The translations under genes and the position numbers were made by a program. A stretch of 43,823 nucleotides of DNA from contig JASFYH010000014.1 in NCBI GenBank assembly GCA_030055595.1, positions 1-43,823 on the forward strand. The letters are read 5' to 3'. The stretch comes from Archaeoglobales archaeon. Lineage in GTDB: Archaea > Halobacteriota > Archaeoglobi > Archaeoglobales > Archaeoglobaceae. Of the stretch, positions 8,483 to 43,823 are shown piece by piece (position 1 is the stretch's first letter; each line of letters starts with the position of its first letter). Under the pieces are notes generated by a model. That model was given only the letters and a program-made list of their open reading frames with translations, made no database searches and had not been told where the DNA came from.

Positions 8483-8633
8483 ATCAATTTTGAGATGCTT
8501 CTCGTAAGTGATATAAATTTTTTGTTGGTGTATTGATAAATTAATAATTTTAAATTTGAATAGGAATTATGGGACTTTTAAGTAAACTTTAGATCTTAGG
8601 CTATTTTGAATTTTGTCCTTTTTAGAGAGATTT

Positions 8634-9959
8634 TCAAAGTTCTTCCTCTTCACCTTTAAGTTTTGAGATGAAAAATTGCTTTAGTCCTCTATATAGCCTC
8701 TCCAGATCCTCCAAAAACAATTTTGGCAAATTTATGAGCGCAATACTTGTAGGCTGTCCAAATTCGTCGTAAAGTCTGAGCAATGGAAATAGGAGCAAAG
8801 AAGATGCAAATGAGAAGAGGAATAGAACCAGATACGAATTCCCACCGAGAAATGCAAGTTTTGCAAGTAAGATGCCACCAAAAATGCTGCCCAATGCAGA
8901 AAAGAAGTCCTGCATCCAGTTTCCAATTGCGTAGAAGGGCGCGGAGTGCTTTCTATGTGTCATATCCGCAACAGCGTTCATAAAAGCTATACTTGGTGCG
9001 GATGTGTAGAAACCATGCAAAATGTATGCGATTAAAAGTAAAATTAGAGAAATAATGAAGTCAGAGAGGATAAAAAAGATCGTAGAAAGAGCAAAAGAAG
9101 CCATTGAGATCGCAAATAGAGGCTTGTTTCCAAATCGATCCGATATTGTCCCAGCAAGTCTCAGAGAGTAGATCGACGAGATATGGGCTACAAATGCGAA
9201 TATGAAGATAAACCAAATCGGATATTCAAGAACCTGTAGCACATAAACCGCAAAAAATGAACGTGATGCACTCAACGAAAAGCAAAATGCAGAATTTAAT
9301 AGCGTCCATTTCAGGAAATTTGGATTTTTCAAGGGGACGATAAGACTTGGTTCGCTTATCCTTTTGATTTTAACATCCTCAATATTCCTGAGGAAGTGAA
9401 CACTTATGATCCCAGCCAAGAACGCGCAGAAGAATAAAATTGGAAAGGCATTTTTATCAAGCTCTTCAAAAAGCCAGATCTGTGATATTAAAATTGGAAT
9501 TGCAGCTATCTTCCCGTAGGCAAGCCTCTTCGATAGTCTCTCTCCTAACTGTGCTCCAAAAAAGAGACCACGAGTCCAAGAGCTCCAAGTTACTGTTAGT
9601 AGATCTTCACAGATGTTAAAAATTAAGTAGAATACTGCAAATGCCAAGATCTCGTAAGGTCCGTCTATAAGAGACGCGACTGCAATTGCTAAAACCGAAT
9701 TCTTGGCTACGAAGCTTGCAAAAACTGCAATTTTTTTTCTACTTCGCTTTTCAACGAATTTTGCTGAAACGATCTGAGTTATCGTCGTCGTGTATGGTAT
9801 CGCAACCAAAACTCCGATAAGAAATGGACTTGCTCCAGCAACCGCAAGATATGAGCTTATGATGGTTGCTGTGAGCAATGAAGCGGTTATCTGGGAAAAA
9901 ATCCCTTCTCTAATAAAATTTTTTAGGCTTCTCTCTGGATCGTGAAACTCTACATCCAT
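8634..9959 (-). CDS. MFS-type membrane transporter
   Basis: The 441-residue protein has about 11-12 hydrophobic segments and an overall layout of the major facilitator superfamily, with an inner repeat at about residue 215. The basic loop EKRSRKKIAVFAS after the second segment and AGTISDRFGNKPLFAIS in the second half match the family's signature loop (G-x3-D-R-x-G-x-[RK]). The N-terminus is cytoplasmic and starts MDVEFHDPERSLKNF; the C-terminal tail is charged (KGEEEEL). No substrate can be assigned, and no partner gene is adjacent: ribK lies 150 bases downstream and a gene remnant lies upstream. It may be an exporter or a permease of a kind common in Archaeoglobus. Confidence 0.85.
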   Translation of the reverse strand: MDVEFHDPERSLKNFIREGIFSQITASLLTATIISSYLAVAGASPFLIGVLVAIPYTTTITQIVSAKFVEKRSRKKIAVFASFVAKNSVLAIAVASLIDGPYEILAFAVFYLIFNICEDLLTVTWSSWTRGLFFGAQLGERLSKRLAYGKIAAIPILISQIWLFEELDKNAFPILFFCAFLAGIISVHFLRNIEDVKIKRISEPSLIVPLKNPNFLKWTLLNSAFCFSLSASRSFFAVYVLQVLEYPIWFIFIFAFVAHISSIYSLRLAGTISDRFGNKPLFAISMASFALSTIFFILSDFIISLILLLIAYILHGFYTSAPSIAFMNAVADMTHRKHSAPFYAIGNWMQDFFSALGSIFGGILLAKLAFLGGNSYLVLFLFSFASSLLLFPLLRLYDEFGQPTSIALINLPKLFLEDLERLYRGLKQFFISKLKGEEEEL

Positions 9960-26097: not shown

Positions 26098-28368
26098 TCA
26101 GTCAATTTTTGGAGCAAATTCAATGCGCAGATATGGTCTCGTCGCAGTATTTGAGTTCTCTTTGGAATTGAAAGTAATTCTCGTAGCCTGATTTTCGTTG
26201 CTTGACTTTATGCACCATCCATAATTTGCGGTTCCGTCAGCGAATAGCTGAACGTCTGTTGTTACATTCCAAGCTAAATAGATATTGTTTGTAGTTGGTG
26301 GGGTTATGCTATTGGTTGGATTGGTTTCAAAGCTTGGTTGATTGTTCCAATTTATTGTTGTTTCCGACCAGCTTGCTAAAACTCTATGAGCACCAAGATT
26401 TATTGTGGTTGGCGTTCCAGAATGACCACTCTTGTAAAGGAAAAGTGTTGCATTCATGATCCTCGCGTCTGTAATTTCAGGGGGGAGATCGAACTTTATA
26501 AACGTCCTCCAAATGTGATTTGGGTTTGTTCTGCCAGAATACAACACTGTTGAACCTCCGTAATTGGTATTCGCTGCTGTAGATCTTACATAGGAGTCGT
26601 AAATTTGGGTGGTGTCTCCTATTTCGATCACCTTTATAACTCCGACATCAGTAAAGACTTCCTGACTGCATGCATTGCTGTCATCGCAAGCTTTTGCATA
26701 AACCCTGATCTTGTTACCTTCTTCGGTTTCACTTATAGCGTAGGTATTCGTTGTGCTCCAGTCTCTTAGCAATGAGTTGAAGGTTAGATCATAGAATCTG
26801 TAGTAGTAGGTAATTGGATCTCCATTTGGATCCGTTGAACCACTCGCAGTAGCGGTAATCGTTTCTCCACTGCGGTAGTATTTCTTATCTGTAACAAGAT
26901 TTGGAATTGTTGGCGGTAGATTCACCGCTCCGGCGTTGACGACTGTTATGTTCAAGATCGCAGAACTATCACCAAGAATTGCAGCTATTGCAACGCTTCC
27001 ATTCATGTTAGCGGTCAAATTAACATAAGCCCAACCCGTGCTGTTCGTTTGCGAGCTTCTGTCAGAAATGCTCACGATTGTCGTGTTGTTCAATACAAAA
27101 TAAATGGGCACGAATGCAACCACTCCCTCTTGGAAAATTGCGTTAACGTAAAAGTTTGTCTGGTTTGTGGTATTTCGAACGTCCCACGTATGATCCCGAA
27201 TTGCTATATTTCCTACTTCTTTATACCATCTAAGCGTAAAAGTCCCCCCTCCTCCACCACCAGAGCTTGGGGGTTGCTCAACGTTTATGTTGAAGGTAAC
27301 CGTGGAACCGTCCGCTACAAAATTGACTAATTGGTTGCCCGTGCAATTTGCGTTGAAGTAATACCAGACCTCGCCCCTTTCATCACTGATTTTCTGAGTG
27401 TCACCATTGCAGGGGTCATTTATAACGACGCCAACACCCCTCACGGGATTTCCATAACTATCTACAACTATTGCTCCGAGACCAAGAGTTGAATGGGGAT
27501 AGACATTAAAACTTGTTGAAGTGATTGCAATTAAATTGTATTGAGCTTGAGAAGGGTTGGGAAGAATTTCTCCAGTTGCTAAAGCATAAGCTTCAAAAAC
27601 AGAAATCGAAAGCGTGATGTTTTTGAGATTTTCAAGGCTAACAACGTTTCCAGCTCTGCTAACCTTTACTTCTGAATTGTTCTCATAAACTTTGCTTAAA
27701 GTTGCATTCCACCATTCCGCAGTCTTTTCGTCAAAGCATTCAAAGCTAATATTGCCACTGAAAAGATTTTTGCCTCCAACAGAGACTGGAATAAATATTA
27801 AGTTTGCACTCTCAGTTGTTGCAAAGCTTTTGAAGTTCGCCTTTATGAGATATAGCGAAATCGAATTATTGCTGAATGAGCTCTGATCGGATTCCCTTAA
27901 AACAACAGAGTCCTCAAGTCTTAAAACCGCTGAGTGCTCGTAGATCAGCTTTGAACGCGATGAATAGAAGTAATTGGGCTCGACAATAATAGCAGAAGTC
28001 GTATTTTCCAATCTGAATTCTCGCCTCTCTCCACCAACCGAAACGTTCCCATCAACTCTTATTCCCAAATCCTTTGCGGAAATCGTTGTCGAAGCCTTTG
28101 GTGGAGAGACAAGGACGTAATAATTCGGGTAATCCACACCCGCCTTTAAAACGATCTTTGCTGGATTTCCTGTTGAAGCGGATAGCGAGACAACTTCGCT
28201 AAAATCCGCAACCCCATACTTCAACTCGCTGAGATGTTTTGCTTCAACCGCCTTATTCCACTGCGGAACCGCGGTTGATTGCAGAATGCCGATTAACCCC
28301 ATTACTATTGCCATCAGCAGTATGAATCCGATCAATGGCGAGACCGCTCTGCAATCGATCTGTTTCAT
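26098..28368 (-). CDS. Large pilin-signal surface protein with C-terminal DNRLRE-type domain
   Basis: The 756-residue product starts MKQIDCRAVSPLIGFILLMA: the class III (type IV pilin) signal of archaeal pilins, with cleavage before AVSPLIG by a PibD/FlaK-type peptidase and a hydrophobic helix that could enter a filament or the membrane. Long Thr/Ser/Asn-rich beta domains follow, with a Gly-rich linker (GGGGGG) near residue 370 and an Ig/PKD-like piece around 490-570 (SGSTDPNGDPITYYYRF). Residues about 585-755 match the DNRLRE (disaggregatase-related) pattern: YDSYVRSTAANTNYGG, then FIKFDLPPEITDARI, LFLYKSG and TTINWNNQPSF. Such domains often bind or stick to surfaces or glycans. It is likely an adhesin. 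It is transcribed divergently from the ferritin-like gene. Confidence 0.85.
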   Translation of the reverse strand: MKQIDCRAVSPLIGFILLMAIVMGLIGILQSTAVPQWNKAVEAKHLSELKYGVADFSEVVSLSASTGNPAKIVLKAGVDYPNYYVLVSPPKASTTISAKDLGIRVDGNVSVGGERREFRLENTTSAIIVEPNYFYSSRSKLIYEHSAVLRLEDSVVLRESDQSSFSNNSISLYLIKANFKSFATTESANLIFIPVSVGGKNLFSGNISFECFDEKTAEWWNATLSKVYENNSEVKVSRAGNVVSLENLKNITLSISVFEAYALATGEILPNPSQAQYNLIAITSTSFNVYPHSTLGLGAIVVDSYGNPVRGVGVVINDPCNGDTQKISDERGEVWYYFNANCTGNQLVNFVADGSTVTFNINVEQPPSSGGGGGGTFTLRWYKEVGNIAIRDHTWDVRNTTNQTNFYVNAIFQEGVVAFVPIYFVLNNTTIVSISDRSSQTNSTGWAYVNLTANMNGSVAIAAILGDSSAILNITVVNAGAVNLPPTIPNLVTDKKYYRSGETITATASGSTDPNGDPITYYYRFYDLTFNSLLRDWSTTNTYAISETEEGNKIRVYAKACDDSNACSQEVFTDVGVIKVIEIGDTTQIYDSYVRSTAANTNYGGSTVLYSGRTNPNHIWRTFIKFDLPPEITDARIMNATLFLYKSGHSGTPTTINLGAHRVLASWSETTINWNNQPSFETNPTNSITPPTTNNIYLAWNVTTDVQLFADGTANYGWCIKSSNENQATRITFNSKENSNTATRPYLRIEFAPKID

Positions 28369-39868: not shown

Positions 39869-40648
39869 ATGATAAAGAGAGTAGATGTGCGGTATCTGAA
39901 GGATCCTGAGAGTTTTGGCTTAAAGGATCCAGTCTTCATTGAAGGTTTACCGGGAATAGGGCATGTTGGAAAGCTTGTTGCGGATCACTTGGTGAACGAA
40001 CTTGGAGCGGAGAAAGTCGTGGAGATCTATTCGCACCATTTTCCACCGCAAGTAATGGTTCTTGAAGATGGCACAATTAGAATCCCGAAAAATGAGGTCT
40101 ATGCATGGAGATCGAATGGACCTTCTCCAGATCTCTTGGTCTTAGTAGGTGACTTTCAGAGTATAAGCAATGAGGGACACTTTGAGCTTGTTAATGCTTA
40201 CATAGAGATTGCAAAGAGGTTTGGAGTCAAAAGGATCTACACTCTCGGTGGTTATGGGGTTGGAAGGCTTGTGGAAGAGCCATACGTTGTCGGTGCGTCA
40301 AATTCAAAGGAGATTGTTGAAGAAATGGGGAAGTTCGGAGTAAAATTCGAACCTGGAGAGCCGGGAGGCGGAATAATAGGTGCAGCGGGATTATTACTTG
40401 GAGTTGCAGAGCTTGAAAAGATCGAAGCGGTCTGTCTGATGGGAGTTACTTCTGGCTACATGGTAGATCCAAAAAGCGCAAAGGCGGTTTTGGACGTCCT
40501 CTCCAAGATCTTAGGTCTTAAAGTATCTGTGGAAGCTCTTGAGAAAAGGGCTAAGGAAATGGAGAAGATTATAGCCCAGATAAAGGAGATGCAGGAGCTT
40601 GCGGTTCAGCAGTGGAAGAGCGATGAAGATCTGAGATACTTCAGATGA
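39869..40648 (+). CDS. PAC2-family protein (proteasome assembly chaperone-like)
   Basis: Residues 20-200 show the PAC2 pattern: DPVFIEGLPGIGHVGKLVAD, LLVLVGDFQSISNEGHFEL, TLGGYGVGRLVEEPYVVGAS, GIIGAAGLLLGVAEL and VCLMGVTSGYMVDPKSA. Eukaryotic PAC2 and the archaeal PbaB help assemble or bind the proteasome. The C-terminal 50 residues are a charged helix (LEKRAKEMEKIIAQIKEMQE). The GTG at 39860 overlaps the nop10 stop, but GGTGAGGAG stands before the ATG at 39869, which I prefer. The 3' end overlaps the next gene (ATGA). Place in the aIF2 alpha-nop10 operon is typical. Confidence 0.92.
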   Translation: MIKRVDVRYLKDPESFGLKDPVFIEGLPGIGHVGKLVADHLVNELGAEKVVEIYSHHFPPQVMVLEDGTIRIPKNEVYAWRSNGPSPDLLVLVGDFQSISNEGHFELVNAYIEIAKRFGVKRIYTLGGYGVGRLVEEPYVVGASNSKEIVEEMGKFGVKFEPGEPGGGIIGAAGLLLGVAELEKIEAVCLMGVTSGYMVDPKSAKAVLDVLSKILGLKVSVEALEKRAKEMEKIIAQIKEMQELAVQQWKSDEDLRYFR

Positions 40649-41349
40649 GGTTCTGGGAGATCGACTTTGCGAGGGGAATAGCGGTAATTCTAATGCTAAT
40701 TTTTCACCTATTTTTCGATGCATACTACTTTGGCAAGATCAAGCTTGAAGGCGACTTCTGGTTCTGGTTTCCCCGCTTTATCGGCGGGATGTTCATATTC
40801 ATTTCAGGATTTACATTTAGTATAGTCTATAAAAATTTTAAGCCAGTGCTTAGGAGAACGCTGAGACTCTTGTTGATCGCATTGGGAATAACCCTTGCCA
40901 CGTTCATCTTTGCCCCTGATAAAATGGTTATTTTTGGCATAATTCACTTCTTTGCTTTGTCCTCTTTTTTGGGGTTTGCCTTCATTAGAAAGCCATTTTT
41001 AAGCCTCTCGGTTGGGATTTTGTTTCTCATTGCGAATTTTAAGGTCTCGGAACTACTAATTAAGGAGCCTTACCTTGTCTGGCTTGGAATAATGCCCTAT
41101 GGCTTTAGAACGCTTGACTACTATCCAATGATCCCTTGGTTCGGCGTTTTTTTGCTTGGCATGTTCTTTGGTTCTTATTACAGGCGTGAAAGCTCAAATT
41201 ACTGGAGCAACCCGATAAGTTTTCTTGGAAGACATTCATTGGCGATCTATTTGCTTCAGCACCCAGTCATAGTGCTTTTGCTTCAGCTTTACTATGGGGA
41301 CATCCTTAATGAGCTTTTTTATCTTTTTAGTCGTTCAGCTTTCTCTTAG
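40645..41349 (+). CDS. Membrane acyltransferase-like protein (HGSNAT/DUF1624 type)
   Basis: The 234-residue protein has seven to eight hydrophobic segments and begins RFWEIDFARGIAVILMLIFH, the signature of the heparan-alpha-glucosaminide N-acetyltransferase catalytic family (DUF1624), which moves an acetyl group across a membrane onto amino sugars. The first-helix Asp and Arg, the His in MLIFHLFFD, and FLGRHSLAIYLLQHPVI at about residue 192 are conserved features of the wider acyltransferase group. In archaea the substrate is unknown; cell-surface glycans are likely. It ends the aIF2alpha-nop10-PAC2 run with 4-base overlaps. Confidence 0.85.
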   Translation: MRFWEIDFARGIAVILMLIFHLFFDAYYFGKIKLEGDFWFWFPRFIGGMFIFISGFTFSIVYKNFKPVLRRTLRLLLIALGITLATFIFAPDKMVIFGIIHFFALSSFLGFAFIRKPFLSLSVGILFLIANFKVSELLIKEPYLVWLGIMPYGFRTLDYYPMIPWFGVFLLGMFFGSYYRRESSNYWSNPISFLGRHSLAIYLLQHPVIVLLLQLYYGDILNELFYLFSRSAFS

Positions 41350-41655: not shown

Positions 41656-42363
41656 ATGAAACTTTACAAAACTACAGGCGCACTCATATTTACGGCGGTT
41701 CTGCTTGTGATCGTTGTATACACTCCGCTACTTATGGGAATAGTTGCAAGCTCAGCGATCGTAGCCCTTAAAGCTGGAATTGGATGCAGATACAGTTCCT
41801 TGGGTAGGAGGGTAATTTACTTTCTTGCTCTATTTTACTTCTCTCTTGCTATAGCCCTTGTTTTCCTGTTAGAAAACATTATGGGCTCACTTTCAGGTTT
41901 GCTTAACTACACAATCGCTTTTCATCTAATCGTTGCTTCTCTACTTTTTTTAGCTGGCTACATGACAATTAAAAAAGCCTCGTGCGGAATCGATCTGTCG
42001 AGCAAAACTTCTTTGGCAATTGCAGTTCCTTGCCCTGTTTGTTTTGCCGCAATTTTCATCTCTTGCTATTTCGCTTTGCAAATTCTTGAAATCCCCAGAC
42101 TTGCAATAGGAGCGATCGTTGGGGCTATAATTGCTTTGGGAATTCTTATTTTATCTCTTGAGAAGAAAGAAAATCCCGAAAGGCTTGGAAAGATCATGTT
42201 GCTCCTTGGTGTCTACTACTTCTTTGCAATGCTTTTGATCCCTGCGGTAATTGAGGGCATGAGCTTCAAATTTTCAATTGCAGACTTCTTTAGCCCATAT
42301 TCGTTGATTTTGCTTATTCCAATTACTTTGGGAGCAATAAGGGGTGCTATGAGATATGTTTAG
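41656..42363 (+). CDS. Membrane protein of DUF2162 type (putative transporter)
   Basis: The 235-residue protein has six or seven hydrophobic segments, with the family's IAVPCPVCFAAIF motif (CPVC; about 128-140) and a basic loop CGIDLSSKTS just before it. DUF2162 proteins recall LysE/CcdA-type transporters and occur mostly in methanogens and Archaeoglobales. Together with the two following genes it forms a set that often stands near cobaltochelatase-like cobN genes in methanogens; that comes from memory, and no cobN is visible here. A 306-base stretch precedes it. Its 3' end overlaps the ExbB-like gene by 8 bases. Confidence 0.8.
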   Translation: MKLYKTTGALIFTAVLLVIVVYTPLLMGIVASSAIVALKAGIGCRYSSLGRRVIYFLALFYFSLAIALVFLLENIMGSLSGLLNYTIAFHLIVASLLFLAGYMTIKKASCGIDLSSKTSLAIAVPCPVCFAAIFISCYFALQILEIPRLAIGAIVGAIIALGILILSLEKKENPERLGKIMLLLGVYYFFAMLLIPAVIEGMSFKFSIADFFSPYSLILLIPITLGAIRGAMRYV

Positions 42364-42958
42364 CATTACTTCAGCCATTTATGCGACGATGTATGCGATC
42401 TCGACTTCTCTGCTTTATCCGGTGATCTTAGCCTTGATTCTGCTCGTGATCTACTCATTAATGGAGCTCGGGGCTTTCGTCGTTGAAAGTGCGAAAAGGC
42501 TAAGGAACTTTGAAAGTCTGAGAAAAGTGGCAGAACTTGAAGATCTAAAAGGCATTGAAAATTTTATAGTAACGAGATTGCTAAGACAGTATCTACAGGA
42601 CTTAAAAAAATTAAATCCTCGCAAGGAAGACGTTGAAAAGCTTTTAGAGGAATACGAGTTAAAAGTTGCAAAAGAGCTTGAAATTCCAAGGATCTTGGCA
42701 AGAATTGGTCCAATGCTCGGACTTATGGGGACTCTAATTCCCTTAGGACCAGCTATGATCGCCTTATCACAGGGAAACATACATGAGCTTGCTACAAACC
42801 TAATAACCGCCTTCGCAACTACAGTTCTCGGGTTAATCGTAGGCGGAATAGGCTACACAGTGTTTACGGTCAGAAAAAGGTGGTATCTTGAAGATCTGAG
42901 TGATATGGAGTATGTAGCAAAGATCTGGAGGTATAGGAATGAAAAGAAGGCTGATTGA
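42356..42958 (+). CDS. MotA/TolQ/ExbB-type proton channel protein
   Basis: The 200-residue protein has one membrane helix near the start (LYPVILALILLVIYSLMELG), a cytoplasmic helical stretch (50-105), and two further helices bearing the family core LARIGPMLGLMGTLIPLGPA (about 114-133) and NLITAFATTVLGLIVGGIGY. The Gly/Pro pattern and Thr residues of the core are those that line the proton path in ExbB, TolQ and MotA. The following DUF2149 protein is the likely ExbD-like partner. Such pairs turn ion flow into force across the envelope. It overlaps both neighbours, so all three form one operon. Confidence 0.9.
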   Translation: MFSITSAIYATMYAISTSLLYPVILALILLVIYSLMELGAFVVESAKRLRNFESLRKVAELEDLKGIENFIVTRLLRQYLQDLKKLNPRKEDVEKLLEEYELKVAKELEIPRILARIGPMLGLMGTLIPLGPAMIALSQGNIHELATNLITAFATTVLGLIVGGIGYTVFTVRKRWYLEDLSDMEYVAKIWRYRNEKKAD

Positions 42959-43274
42959 TGAAATTGAGGACGACAATCCGCTTGACTTTGTCTCAAATCT
43001 CTTCGACGTAGCATTAATAATAGCTCTGGCTTTCTTAGTCATGCTTGTCACAGCTTATGATCTTACAGAGCTTTTAACGCCAAACGAAAAAATTACGATC
43101 GTTAAAAACCCCGGCGAAGAGAACATGCAGATCATCGTGAAGGATGGAGAAGTTATAAAGGTGATGAACCTGACCGCAGAGCTTCAAGGCGGGCAGGGAG
43201 AGAAGATCGGCACAGCATACAGGCTTAAGGATGGGACGATCATTTATGTTCCCGAGAAAACTTCGACTGATTAA
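42939..43274 (+). CDS. DUF2149 protein, ExbD/TolR-like partner
   Basis: The 111-residue protein is laid out like ExbD: a short cytoplasmic start (about 1-18), one membrane helix with an Asp near its start (SNLFDVALIIALAFLVMLVT, Asp near residue 23, as the ion-carrying Asp of ExbD), and an outside domain rich in beta strands (ENMQIIVKDGEVIKVMNL, YRLKDGTIIYVPE). DUF2149 is mostly found beside ExbB-like genes in archaea. It overlaps the ExbB-like gene by 20 bases. The pair presumably energises some transport or assembly step together with the DUF2162 protein; the target is unknown. Confidence 0.87.
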   Translation: MKRRLIDEIEDDNPLDFVSNLFDVALIIALAFLVMLVTAYDLTELLTPNEKITIVKNPGEENMQIIVKDGEVIKVMNLTAELQGGQGEKIGTAYRLKDGTIIYVPEKTSTD

Positions 43275-43310: not shown

Positions 43311-43487
43311 AAAAGTAAATACCCTTCTTTTTATCCGCAACTCTAAACTCTTCCTCAATTTAAGTCCCCTTTCAAAGTTTGTTTGAACTTTTCTCTTTTT
43401 ATTGCTTAAAAAGTGCTACTAAACTACAGAATTTTATTTCAAATCAAAAACTTCTTTTTACATATATGTCAGCAAGTAGCAAAAACT

Positions 43488-43495
43488 TATATACT
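43488..43495 (+). promoter_or_regulatory. Probable TATA box before the last gene
   Basis: TTATATAC lies about 30 bases before the TTG at 43525. Transcription would begin near 43515, just before the site GGTGAG at 43516-43521. Confidence 0.5.
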
Positions 43496-43524
43496 GCTTG
43501 TGCTTATCTTTGACTGGTGAGAGC

Positions 43525-43823
43525 TTGATCGGCAATTTAGCGACGCCAGTGATTGCGACTAAAATTGCAGAAAATAAGCCAATTCCTGCAAAAGAGAAAT
43601 CTGAATTACATAAAGACATAGAAATTATAAAAATCGACCCAAATCTTGAGAATTTGACACCATATTGGATAATAATAGCTGTTGGAAGTGAAGAAAAGGG
43701 AAGATTGACAACCTTTAAATATATAGATACCAGTAAAAGTCTAAAAGATTATGAAAAAGAGGAGTTGAAAAGATTTTTGCAAGAACTTTGGAAGAAGTAT
43801 CCCGTGAAGACGATTAGAGACAA
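43525..43823 (+). CDS. Unidentified protein (cut by right window edge)
   Basis: The frame stays open to the window end. A TTG at 43525 lies three bases behind GGTGAG and is the best start; the open frame reaches back to 43481 without ATG, partly hydrophobic (IYCLCLSLTGESLIGN), so a longer signal-peptide-like start at TTG 43511 is possible. The visible part holds KIAENKPIPAKEKSELHK, then TPYWIIIAVGSEEKGRLTTF and EELKRFLQELWKKYP. I do not recognise the family; it may be a soluble alpha/beta protein. It is separated from the DUF2149 gene by 250 bases with a palindrome and a TATA box, so is likely its own unit. Confidence 0.6.
   Translation, partial: MIGNLATPVIATKIAENKPIPAKEKSELHKDIEIIKIDPNLENLTPYWIIIAVGSEEKGRLTTFKYIDTSKSLKDYEKEELKRFLQELWKKYPVKTIRD

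Follow-up and report, generated by a model that had tools for sequence, protein, structure and literature searches.

Among the systems that have been described, the closest to the genes considered here is the HmuYRSTUV system of the Bacteroidota. Its protein HmuS is reported to remove iron from heme without ATP, in a reaction for which NADH and His-538 are needed, and the purified recombinant protein alone is stated to carry out 1–2 turnovers (PMC12583661). The last gene of the published hmu operon is called DUF2149 (PMC10434189), and the published gene order is the same as that of the Bacteroidales loci in the present work. HmuU and HmuV have been described as ExbB/ExbD-like proteins that are said to power HmuR together with TonB (PMC10100974; PMC12583661), and a role of HmuTUV in moving heme through the inner membrane has been proposed as well (PMC13227078). 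Matches to HmuS and HmuV in Methanomicrobia have already been counted (PMC10100974, Table 3), and BtuS has been cited as a third type of CobN, which is predicted to be exported and attached to the membrane (PMC6460266). In the open-licence full texts that were searched, no paper was found in which DUF2149 or ExbB is paired with an archaeal extracytoplasmic CobN.

The DNA analysed in this work (the window) is a stretch of 43,823 nucleotides from an Archaeoglobales archaeon, which represents one whole contig and ends 549 bases past the last of three genes on its forward strand. The first of these genes, T (positions 41656–42363), encodes a multi-span membrane protein of 235 aa belonging to DUF2162 (Pfam E 7.5e-39); the second, U (42356–42958), an ExbB/TolQ/MotA-like channel protein of 200 aa (MotA_ExbB, E 1.2e-11); and the third, V (42939–43274), an ExbD-like single-span protein of 111 aa (DUF2149, E 1.2e-31). 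The reading frames of T and U overlap by 8 nt and those of U and V by 20 nt. The overlapping trio of a CPVC protein, an ExbB/TolQ-like protein and an ExbD-like protein, which the original prediction had read from the letters of the window, is thus real, and Pfam agrees with it. No NCBIfam family name was obtained above cut-off for T, U or V, and the score of U was far below the cut-off of the NCBIfam ExbB equivalog. A gene for a membrane protein of the HGSNAT (heparan-alpha-glucosaminide N-acetyltransferase) type (40645–41349; E 2e-59) is located ~300 bp upstream of the trio in the same direction, and no link between the two was seen.

The residues expected of an ion-driven membrane motor are highly conserved in archaeal alignments of these proteins, from which identical and short rows were removed. 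Asp23 of V (43005–43007), which lies inside the membrane helix, is present in 120/120 rows of the archaeal alignment (fetched neighbourhoods plus the window), and it is also invariant among 58 V rows that include bacteria. The membrane Asp that had been predicted for V is borne out by these counts, which refute its absence in most DUF2149 relatives. Thr126 of U (42731–42733), within GLMGTLIPLGPA, and Thr156 (42821–42823) were each found in all 112 archaeal rows, and, from knowledge of the ExbB family, both are taken to be threonines of the ion path. In the CPVC motif of T (residues 126–129; 42031–42042), Cys126 is conserved in 88/88 and Cys129 in 87/88 archaeal rows, and a third cysteine, Cys44, in 84/87. 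For the structure model of T (pLDDT 84.5), a Foldseek search gave no match at E <= 0.001, and the matches by VIA-align (Z up to 6.5), to ZIP, MFS and Nramp-like transporters, were inside the noise band. A CcdA/DsbD-like identity of T, which its CPxC motif had suggested, is unsupported by these fold lists and is left as a guess. The model of V is poor (pLDDT 69.5) and consists of one long helix (residues 14–39); the best Z score obtained with it was 3.7, to unrelated folds, with no ExbD-like fold listed.

Within the genome of this organism (G000), U is the only match to MotA_ExbB, no match to the ExbD family (PF02472) was found, and V matches DUF2149 only. Hence, no candidate partner of U other than V was found here. 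No TonB-dependent receptor (PF00593) was matched in this genome by a search in which the Escherichia coli, Caulobacter and Bacteroides controls were matched. Together with the ion-path residues, this result backs the earlier view that an organism lacking outer-membrane receptors has an energised system of the ExbB/ExbD type. That the partner of this system is not settled inside the window was also stated correctly, as the window is a whole contig and the candidate partner, a CobN-like protein (S) of 1,633 aa, is encoded on another contig (C29). This protein, the only CobN found in the genome, has a signal-like start and a hydrophobic helix at its C-terminus, and the CobN-Mg_chel domain spans nearly its whole length. 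Its gene adjoins no trio and lies directly downstream of two genes on the same strand (L182, 7626–15646), which to judge from their sequences may encode CODH/ACS (cdh) subunits. Two CbiM genes are present elsewhere in the genome. A search for Mg_chelatase (PF01078) gave five weak or partial matches in this genome and a match in 14/14 controls, and it is not diagnostic for AAA+ partners.

A dispersed repeat of up to ~140 bp, with 88–94% identity to the window copy, was noted at five places in this genome. The copy in the window (43428–43569) is just downstream of the trio; another is at 27408–27548 of contig C29, on which the repeat also sits just downstream of the CobN gene, and the remaining copies are on C26, C16, and C18. 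Related copies are found downstream of CobN in the locus of a sister genome (L135). The repeat may have contributed to the break-up of the operon, or it may mark an assembly junction.

Our survey of the phylum points to S as the partner of the trio. DUF2149 was present in 99 of its 324 genomes and CobN-like proteins in 193; CobN was found in 95/99 genomes with DUF2149 vs 98/225 others (Fisher p 4.7e-22, uncorrected for shared ancestry), and the four DUF2149 genomes without it are at most 85% complete. Gene neighbourhoods were compared for 119 stretches of our choosing, which cover 122 of the 142 listed DUF2149 places and 97 of the 99 genomes, with G165 left out and the organism's own genome represented by the window. 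T, U, V, and S were all present in 72/119 of these neighbourhoods. Their order, on the strand of V, was T-U-V-S in 44, T-U-V-S-S in 17 (in one of which, L105, both S are only short CobN fragments), S-T-U-V in seven and T-U-V-S-T-S in one, with S on the opposite strand in three. The remaining orders were U-V (20), T-U-V (12), V alone (8) and U-V-T-U-V (3), and five gene orders occur once each among the 119. The original prediction had counted a scattering of the trio in other genomes as evidence against it; T-U-V is contiguous in most neighbourhoods, though U-V pairs without T do exist. In the sister genome (G063, locus L135) T-U-V-S is contiguous, and therefore the separation of S from the trio in the window's genome looks local. 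Of 12 genomes in which T-U-V is seen without S in view, 10 have a C-terminally anchored CobN elsewhere (for G157 and G319, this S belongs to a T-U-V-S cluster that they also hold), and in the other two (G015 and G035) the CobN match is cut by a contig end. The missing partner of the trio is thus most likely the CobN-like chelatase S. A diphthamide-synthase-family gene (L161, 6284–6967, PF01902 confirmed; a similar gene at L136, 10152–10853) also recurs near U-V or T-U-V, in a BLAST cluster of 17 loci.

The S proteins of these neighbourhoods are distinguished from other CobN proteins by their predicted membrane anchors, which were called from hydropathy alone (Kyte-Doolittle, window 17, cut-off 1.8). 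A C-terminal hydrophobic helix was present in 71 of the 74 complete CobN from DUF2149 neighbourhoods (the S of the window's genome included), and N- and C-terminal stretches were present together in 65 of them. The S of the window's genome passes the C-terminal cut-off, and its N-terminal value of 1.60 is just under 1.8. The three exceptions to the C-terminal anchor are unanchored CobN in L167 and L170 and a partly masked sequence in L134. Neither an N- nor a C-terminal stretch was found in any of 28 complete CobN from elsewhere (0/28), which are the top-scoring loci and not a random sample, many of them being second CobN genes of DUF2149 genomes. In the organism's own family, CobN is present in 31/55 genomes and DUF2149 only in G000 and G063; based upon the best CobN match per genome, anchored CobN is likewise limited to these two, and the best-match loci of 28 other genomes are unanchored, several of them truncated. 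A basic tail after the C-terminal helix agrees, by the positive-inside rule, with a predicted location of the ectodomain of S outside the cell.

A similar separation was observed in a FastTree phylogeny of 142 S proteins (1,122 columns), which was built after the removal of rows under 1050 aa, rows truncated at a contig end, rows with X, and duplicates. In this tree, which was rooted at its midpoint and holds no bacterial cytoplasmic CobN or ChlH among its rows, 90 anchored proteins (84 archaeal and 6 bacterial) are set apart from 52 unanchored ones, with support of 0.93 and 1.0 on the two sides of the root.

The bacterial relatives were collected by a scan with the U alignment, and the named set represents the best 80 of 594 confirmed relatives; as it overlaps the unnamed set, some loci are doubled in counts over both. 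Loci from Bacteroidales, Muribaculaceae, and Phocaeicola have the order S-T'-U-V, apart from one Bacteroidales locus (L252) without S. T'-U-V-S was found in two flavobacterial loci and one Omnitrophota locus, S-U-V without T in one gammaproteobacterial locus, and U-V only in a second Omnitrophota locus (L258). U and V are accordingly the counterparts of HmuU and HmuV of Bacteroidota, a kinship that the original prediction had missed. The bacterial T' gave no match to the archaeal DUF2162 profile, and two HmuT-like proteins that were scanned, out of a set of eight, had no Pfam match. An alignment of archaeal T with all eight by hhalign had a probability of 11% (printed E 0.0028 over 85 columns), and a single family comprising archaeal T and HmuT is unsupported, though conceivable. 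Because the kinship of T to HmuT is unclear and the gammaproteobacterial locus has S-U-V without T, the unit common to archaea and bacteria is, as judged from these sequences, S-U-V.

The best PDB match of the S from the window's genome is HmuS (9d26, E 6.5e-154), followed by CobN and ChlH. At the position of His-538, a His is present in this S and in 76/84 archaeal anchored S. The position of His-1209 is occupied by His in 6/6 bacterial S, and by Asp in this S and in 70/84 archaeal S; that of His-254 is a gap in 69/84 archaeal rows, and this S has no aligned His there. The methionine-rich insertion region (domain IV) corresponds to 122 residues between aligned blocks in this S vs 280 in 9d26. 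Owing to the changes at His-1209 and His-254 and the short methionine-rich region, this S appears HmuS-like by its place and partner and is no HmuS by these marks, and both its reaction and its substrate may differ.

Gene linkage, co-occurrence, the predicted anchoring of S, its HmuS-type grouping, and the conservation of His-538 and of the ion-path residues are features of the sequences themselves; a physical contact of V with S, an action of the motor on S, a role of T and the nature of the substrate are what we infer from them. Taken together, the trio probably makes up the membrane part of an ion-driven machine that chelates or de-chelates tetrapyrroles outside the cytoplasm, and in which it would act on S. 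In this mechanism, U and V would together be a stator powered by protons or sodium ions, whose ion path would include Thr126 and Thr156 of U and Asp23 of V, as conservation and knowledge of the family suggest. V would reach outside by a small domain of ~70 residues and act on S, a secreted CobN-like protein of ~1,630 residues held by one C-terminal helix (on C29 in the window's genome). Since there is no ATP outside the cell for AAA+ subunits of the CobN/ChlH type, the ion gradient would replace their work by opening and closing S, expelling the metal or product, and so allowing turnover. T, by means of its CPxC motif and third cysteine, would probably pass metal or electrons through the membrane, which is the weakest step of the proposal. 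As a genome with no match to a TonB receptor keeps S-U-V, it is most likely the chelatase itself that receives energy from U-V, and not heme import as in the published reading. Counted against an action of the motor on S are the occurrence of U-V without S, often beside other surface proteins, the separation of S from the trio in the window's genome, and the two unanchored CobN (L167 and L170) that are also near U-V; the catalysis that purified HmuS shows to some extent without U-V (PMC12583661) counts against a strict need of the motor in vitro.

The genes that accompany T-U-V-S in some archaea bear both upon the substrate of S and upon the strongest alternative, in which U-V powers transport, T being a metal or tetrapyrrole permease, and the task of S is limited to binding or preparing the substrate outside. 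In locus L136 the genes run T-U-V-S-CbiM-CbiN-CbiQ-ABC ATPase-methyltransferase-two tetrapyrrole methylases and are separated by short gaps or overlap slightly, and both in this locus and in L205 (Methanophagales), which also belongs to family f7, cobalt-uptake and/or corrin genes follow S on the same strand. Pfam scans of representatives confirmed CbiM, CbiQ, and a tetrapyrrole methylase, and the genes that we take to be CbiN, CbiO, CbiT, CbiL, CbiF, CbiA, CbiP, CbiD, and CobT were named by reading their sequence and order. At least two cobalt/B12 genes were found near 12/72 T-U-V-S loci, and near 0/15 T-U-V loci without S in view and 0/29 U-V-only loci. Eleven of these 12 loci are in f7 (putative ANME-1/Methanophagales) and one (L134) is in f17, and they therefore reflect few independent events. 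Of the cobalamin, metal and surface links that had been suggested earlier, each is seen in some lineage: cobalt in the ANME-1-type loci, FeoB- and DtxR-like genes (read by eye) downstream in L104, and, ahead of U-V in L176, an S-layer protein. The idea that cobalamin is the context everywhere is rejected, as cobalt/B12 genes are near only 12 of the 72 loci. The location of the ANME-1-type T-U-V-S inside a cobalt-uptake/B12 cluster suggests cobalt rather than heme, and a cobalt tetrapyrrole is a tentative candidate for the substrate of archaeal S, which we consider somewhat less probable than the other possibilities combined. The adjoining cobalt permease genes in these clusters would suit a transport function, as would the presence of T with U-V in nearly all archaeal loci with an anchored S and the proposal that HmuTUV is an inner-membrane heme carrier (PMC13227078). 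However, the ANME-1-type clusters already hold a separate cobalt permease (CbiM, CbiQ), archaeal T has no clear kinship to the T of Bacteroidota in the hhalign comparison, and T is missing from the gammaproteobacterial S-U-V, so that transport is an unlikely, though not negligible, explanation.

In loci that lack T and S, U-V is associated with other kinds of surface proteins, and it often comes immediately after the gene of a large secreted one. An S-layer protein (PF07752, E 2e-195) is located directly before U-V in L176 (5006–8803); this S-layer/CARDB protein (867 aa) has a weak PGF-CTERM-like end and is followed by its own ExbB-DUF2149 pair. In three relatives (L174, L177, and L178) a protein of 868–873 aa occupies the same place, which in L177 and L178 is like that of L176 in both length and tail, and in L174 in length. 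L145 has a CARDB/beta-helix protein (1,506 aa) and L143 a CARDB/propeller protein (1,966 aa), both upstream of U with a small gene between. Among the upstream secreted proteins, domain scans cover L176, L145, and L143; apart from these and the L176-like ones, the proteins are known by length alone. L145 also has a DUF2162 protein (8570–9775) whose N-terminal part is a fused TPR-like region with a weak Pfam match, and which sits between two U-V pairs and adjoins NosD/beta-helix surface proteins. The giant proteins before U-V in L150, L154, L157, L161, L215, L217, and L222 have C-terminal anchors with a basic tail, of which there are two kinds, one like FYFGY-KEKRAYRR and the other like GIRKERGRYRR. 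In loci without T and S, 37 U genes lie away from contig edges, and for 24 of them the immediately preceding gene encodes a protein with a hydrophobic helix at its C-terminus; these 24 include ordinary membrane proteins and one bacterial case, and some loci are counted twice.

These associations suggest that the U-V motor was re-used with other surface proteins. They also form the case for regarding U-V as a general surface-layer motor, of which S is one link among several, so that the T-U-V of the window might serve another protein: the S-layer protein of L176, the CARDB proteins of L145 and L143, and the hydrophobic helices upstream of U are all consistent with it. However, the U proteins of such loci are mostly in separate clades. 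In the tree of U, a clade of 32 (support 0.957) consists of 31 U from loci without T, two of which lie near unanchored CobN, and one from Omnitrophota; the four U of the S-layer-type loci (support 0.996) are placed within the T+S group, where the surrounding nodes are weak. The U of the sister locus L135 groups with the T+S loci in this tree, which was made without the window's own U. As in the organism's own family an anchored S was also seen only with DUF2149, this explanation of the window's trio is very improbable. A TonB-type energiser of a surface receptor, the role published for HmuUV of Bacteroidota, where these ExbB/ExbD-like proteins are said to power HmuR (PMC10100974; PMC12583661), is just as hard to credit in archaea, since the window's genome has no TonB-receptor match and yet S-U-V is common in its phylum.

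The reading of U-V as a motor of the chelatase S has several consequences. The recurrence of S-U-V in archaea gives these archaeal proteins a partner, and it suggests that in gut bacteria, likewise, the chelatase would be energised by HmuUV; the 1–2 turnovers seen with purified HmuS would then be easier to understand. A further proposal is a route of metal acquisition for methanogens and ANME, whose demand for cobalt and nickel is heavy; Methanosarcina acetivorans, used as a control genome, gave matches to DUF2149, CobN and MotA/ExbB. A broader and more speculative proposal, which we put forward as possible but doubtful, is that ExbB-DUF2149 may be an ion motor with exchangeable clients, through which archaea with a single membrane bring the energy of their ion gradient to the cell surface; the client could be a giant adhesin-like protein, an S-layer protein or a tetrapyrrole chelatase, and its C-terminal helix would replace TonB; its chelatase version would be an ATP-free class I enzyme that frees cobalt or another metal from extracellular tetrapyrroles.

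In comparison with known systems, S resembles the cobaltochelatase CobN and the magnesium chelatase ChlH in the CobN-Mg_chel domain that extends over almost all of the protein, but it is predicted to be secreted and membrane-anchored instead of cytoplasmic, and hence it would be out of reach of AAA+ partners that use ATP in the cytoplasm. U and V resemble ExbB-ExbD, TolQ-TolR, and MotA-MotB by virtue of the MotA_ExbB domain of U and the single span of V with its invariant membrane Asp; they differ from them in that V is outside the ExbD family, U is far under the ExbB equivalog cut-off of NCBIfam, and the genome lacks a TonB-receptor match. The likeness to HmuYRSTUV is the greatest, as in both a CobN-like S with hydrophobic anchors is encoded together with an ExbB-like U and a DUF2149 V, His-538 is kept, and the anchored archaeal and bacterial S are on one side of the tree. 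In contrast to the Hmu system, the archaeal genome has no match to a receptor such as HmuR, its T is a DUF2162 protein that bears CPxC and is not clearly related to HmuT, and its S differs from HmuS at the positions of His-1209 and His-254 and in its short methionine-rich region. By this comparison, the archaeal T-U-V-S represents a version of the Hmu S-U-V machine that lacks the receptor and has a T of its own, and in which the motor would most probably act on the chelatase.
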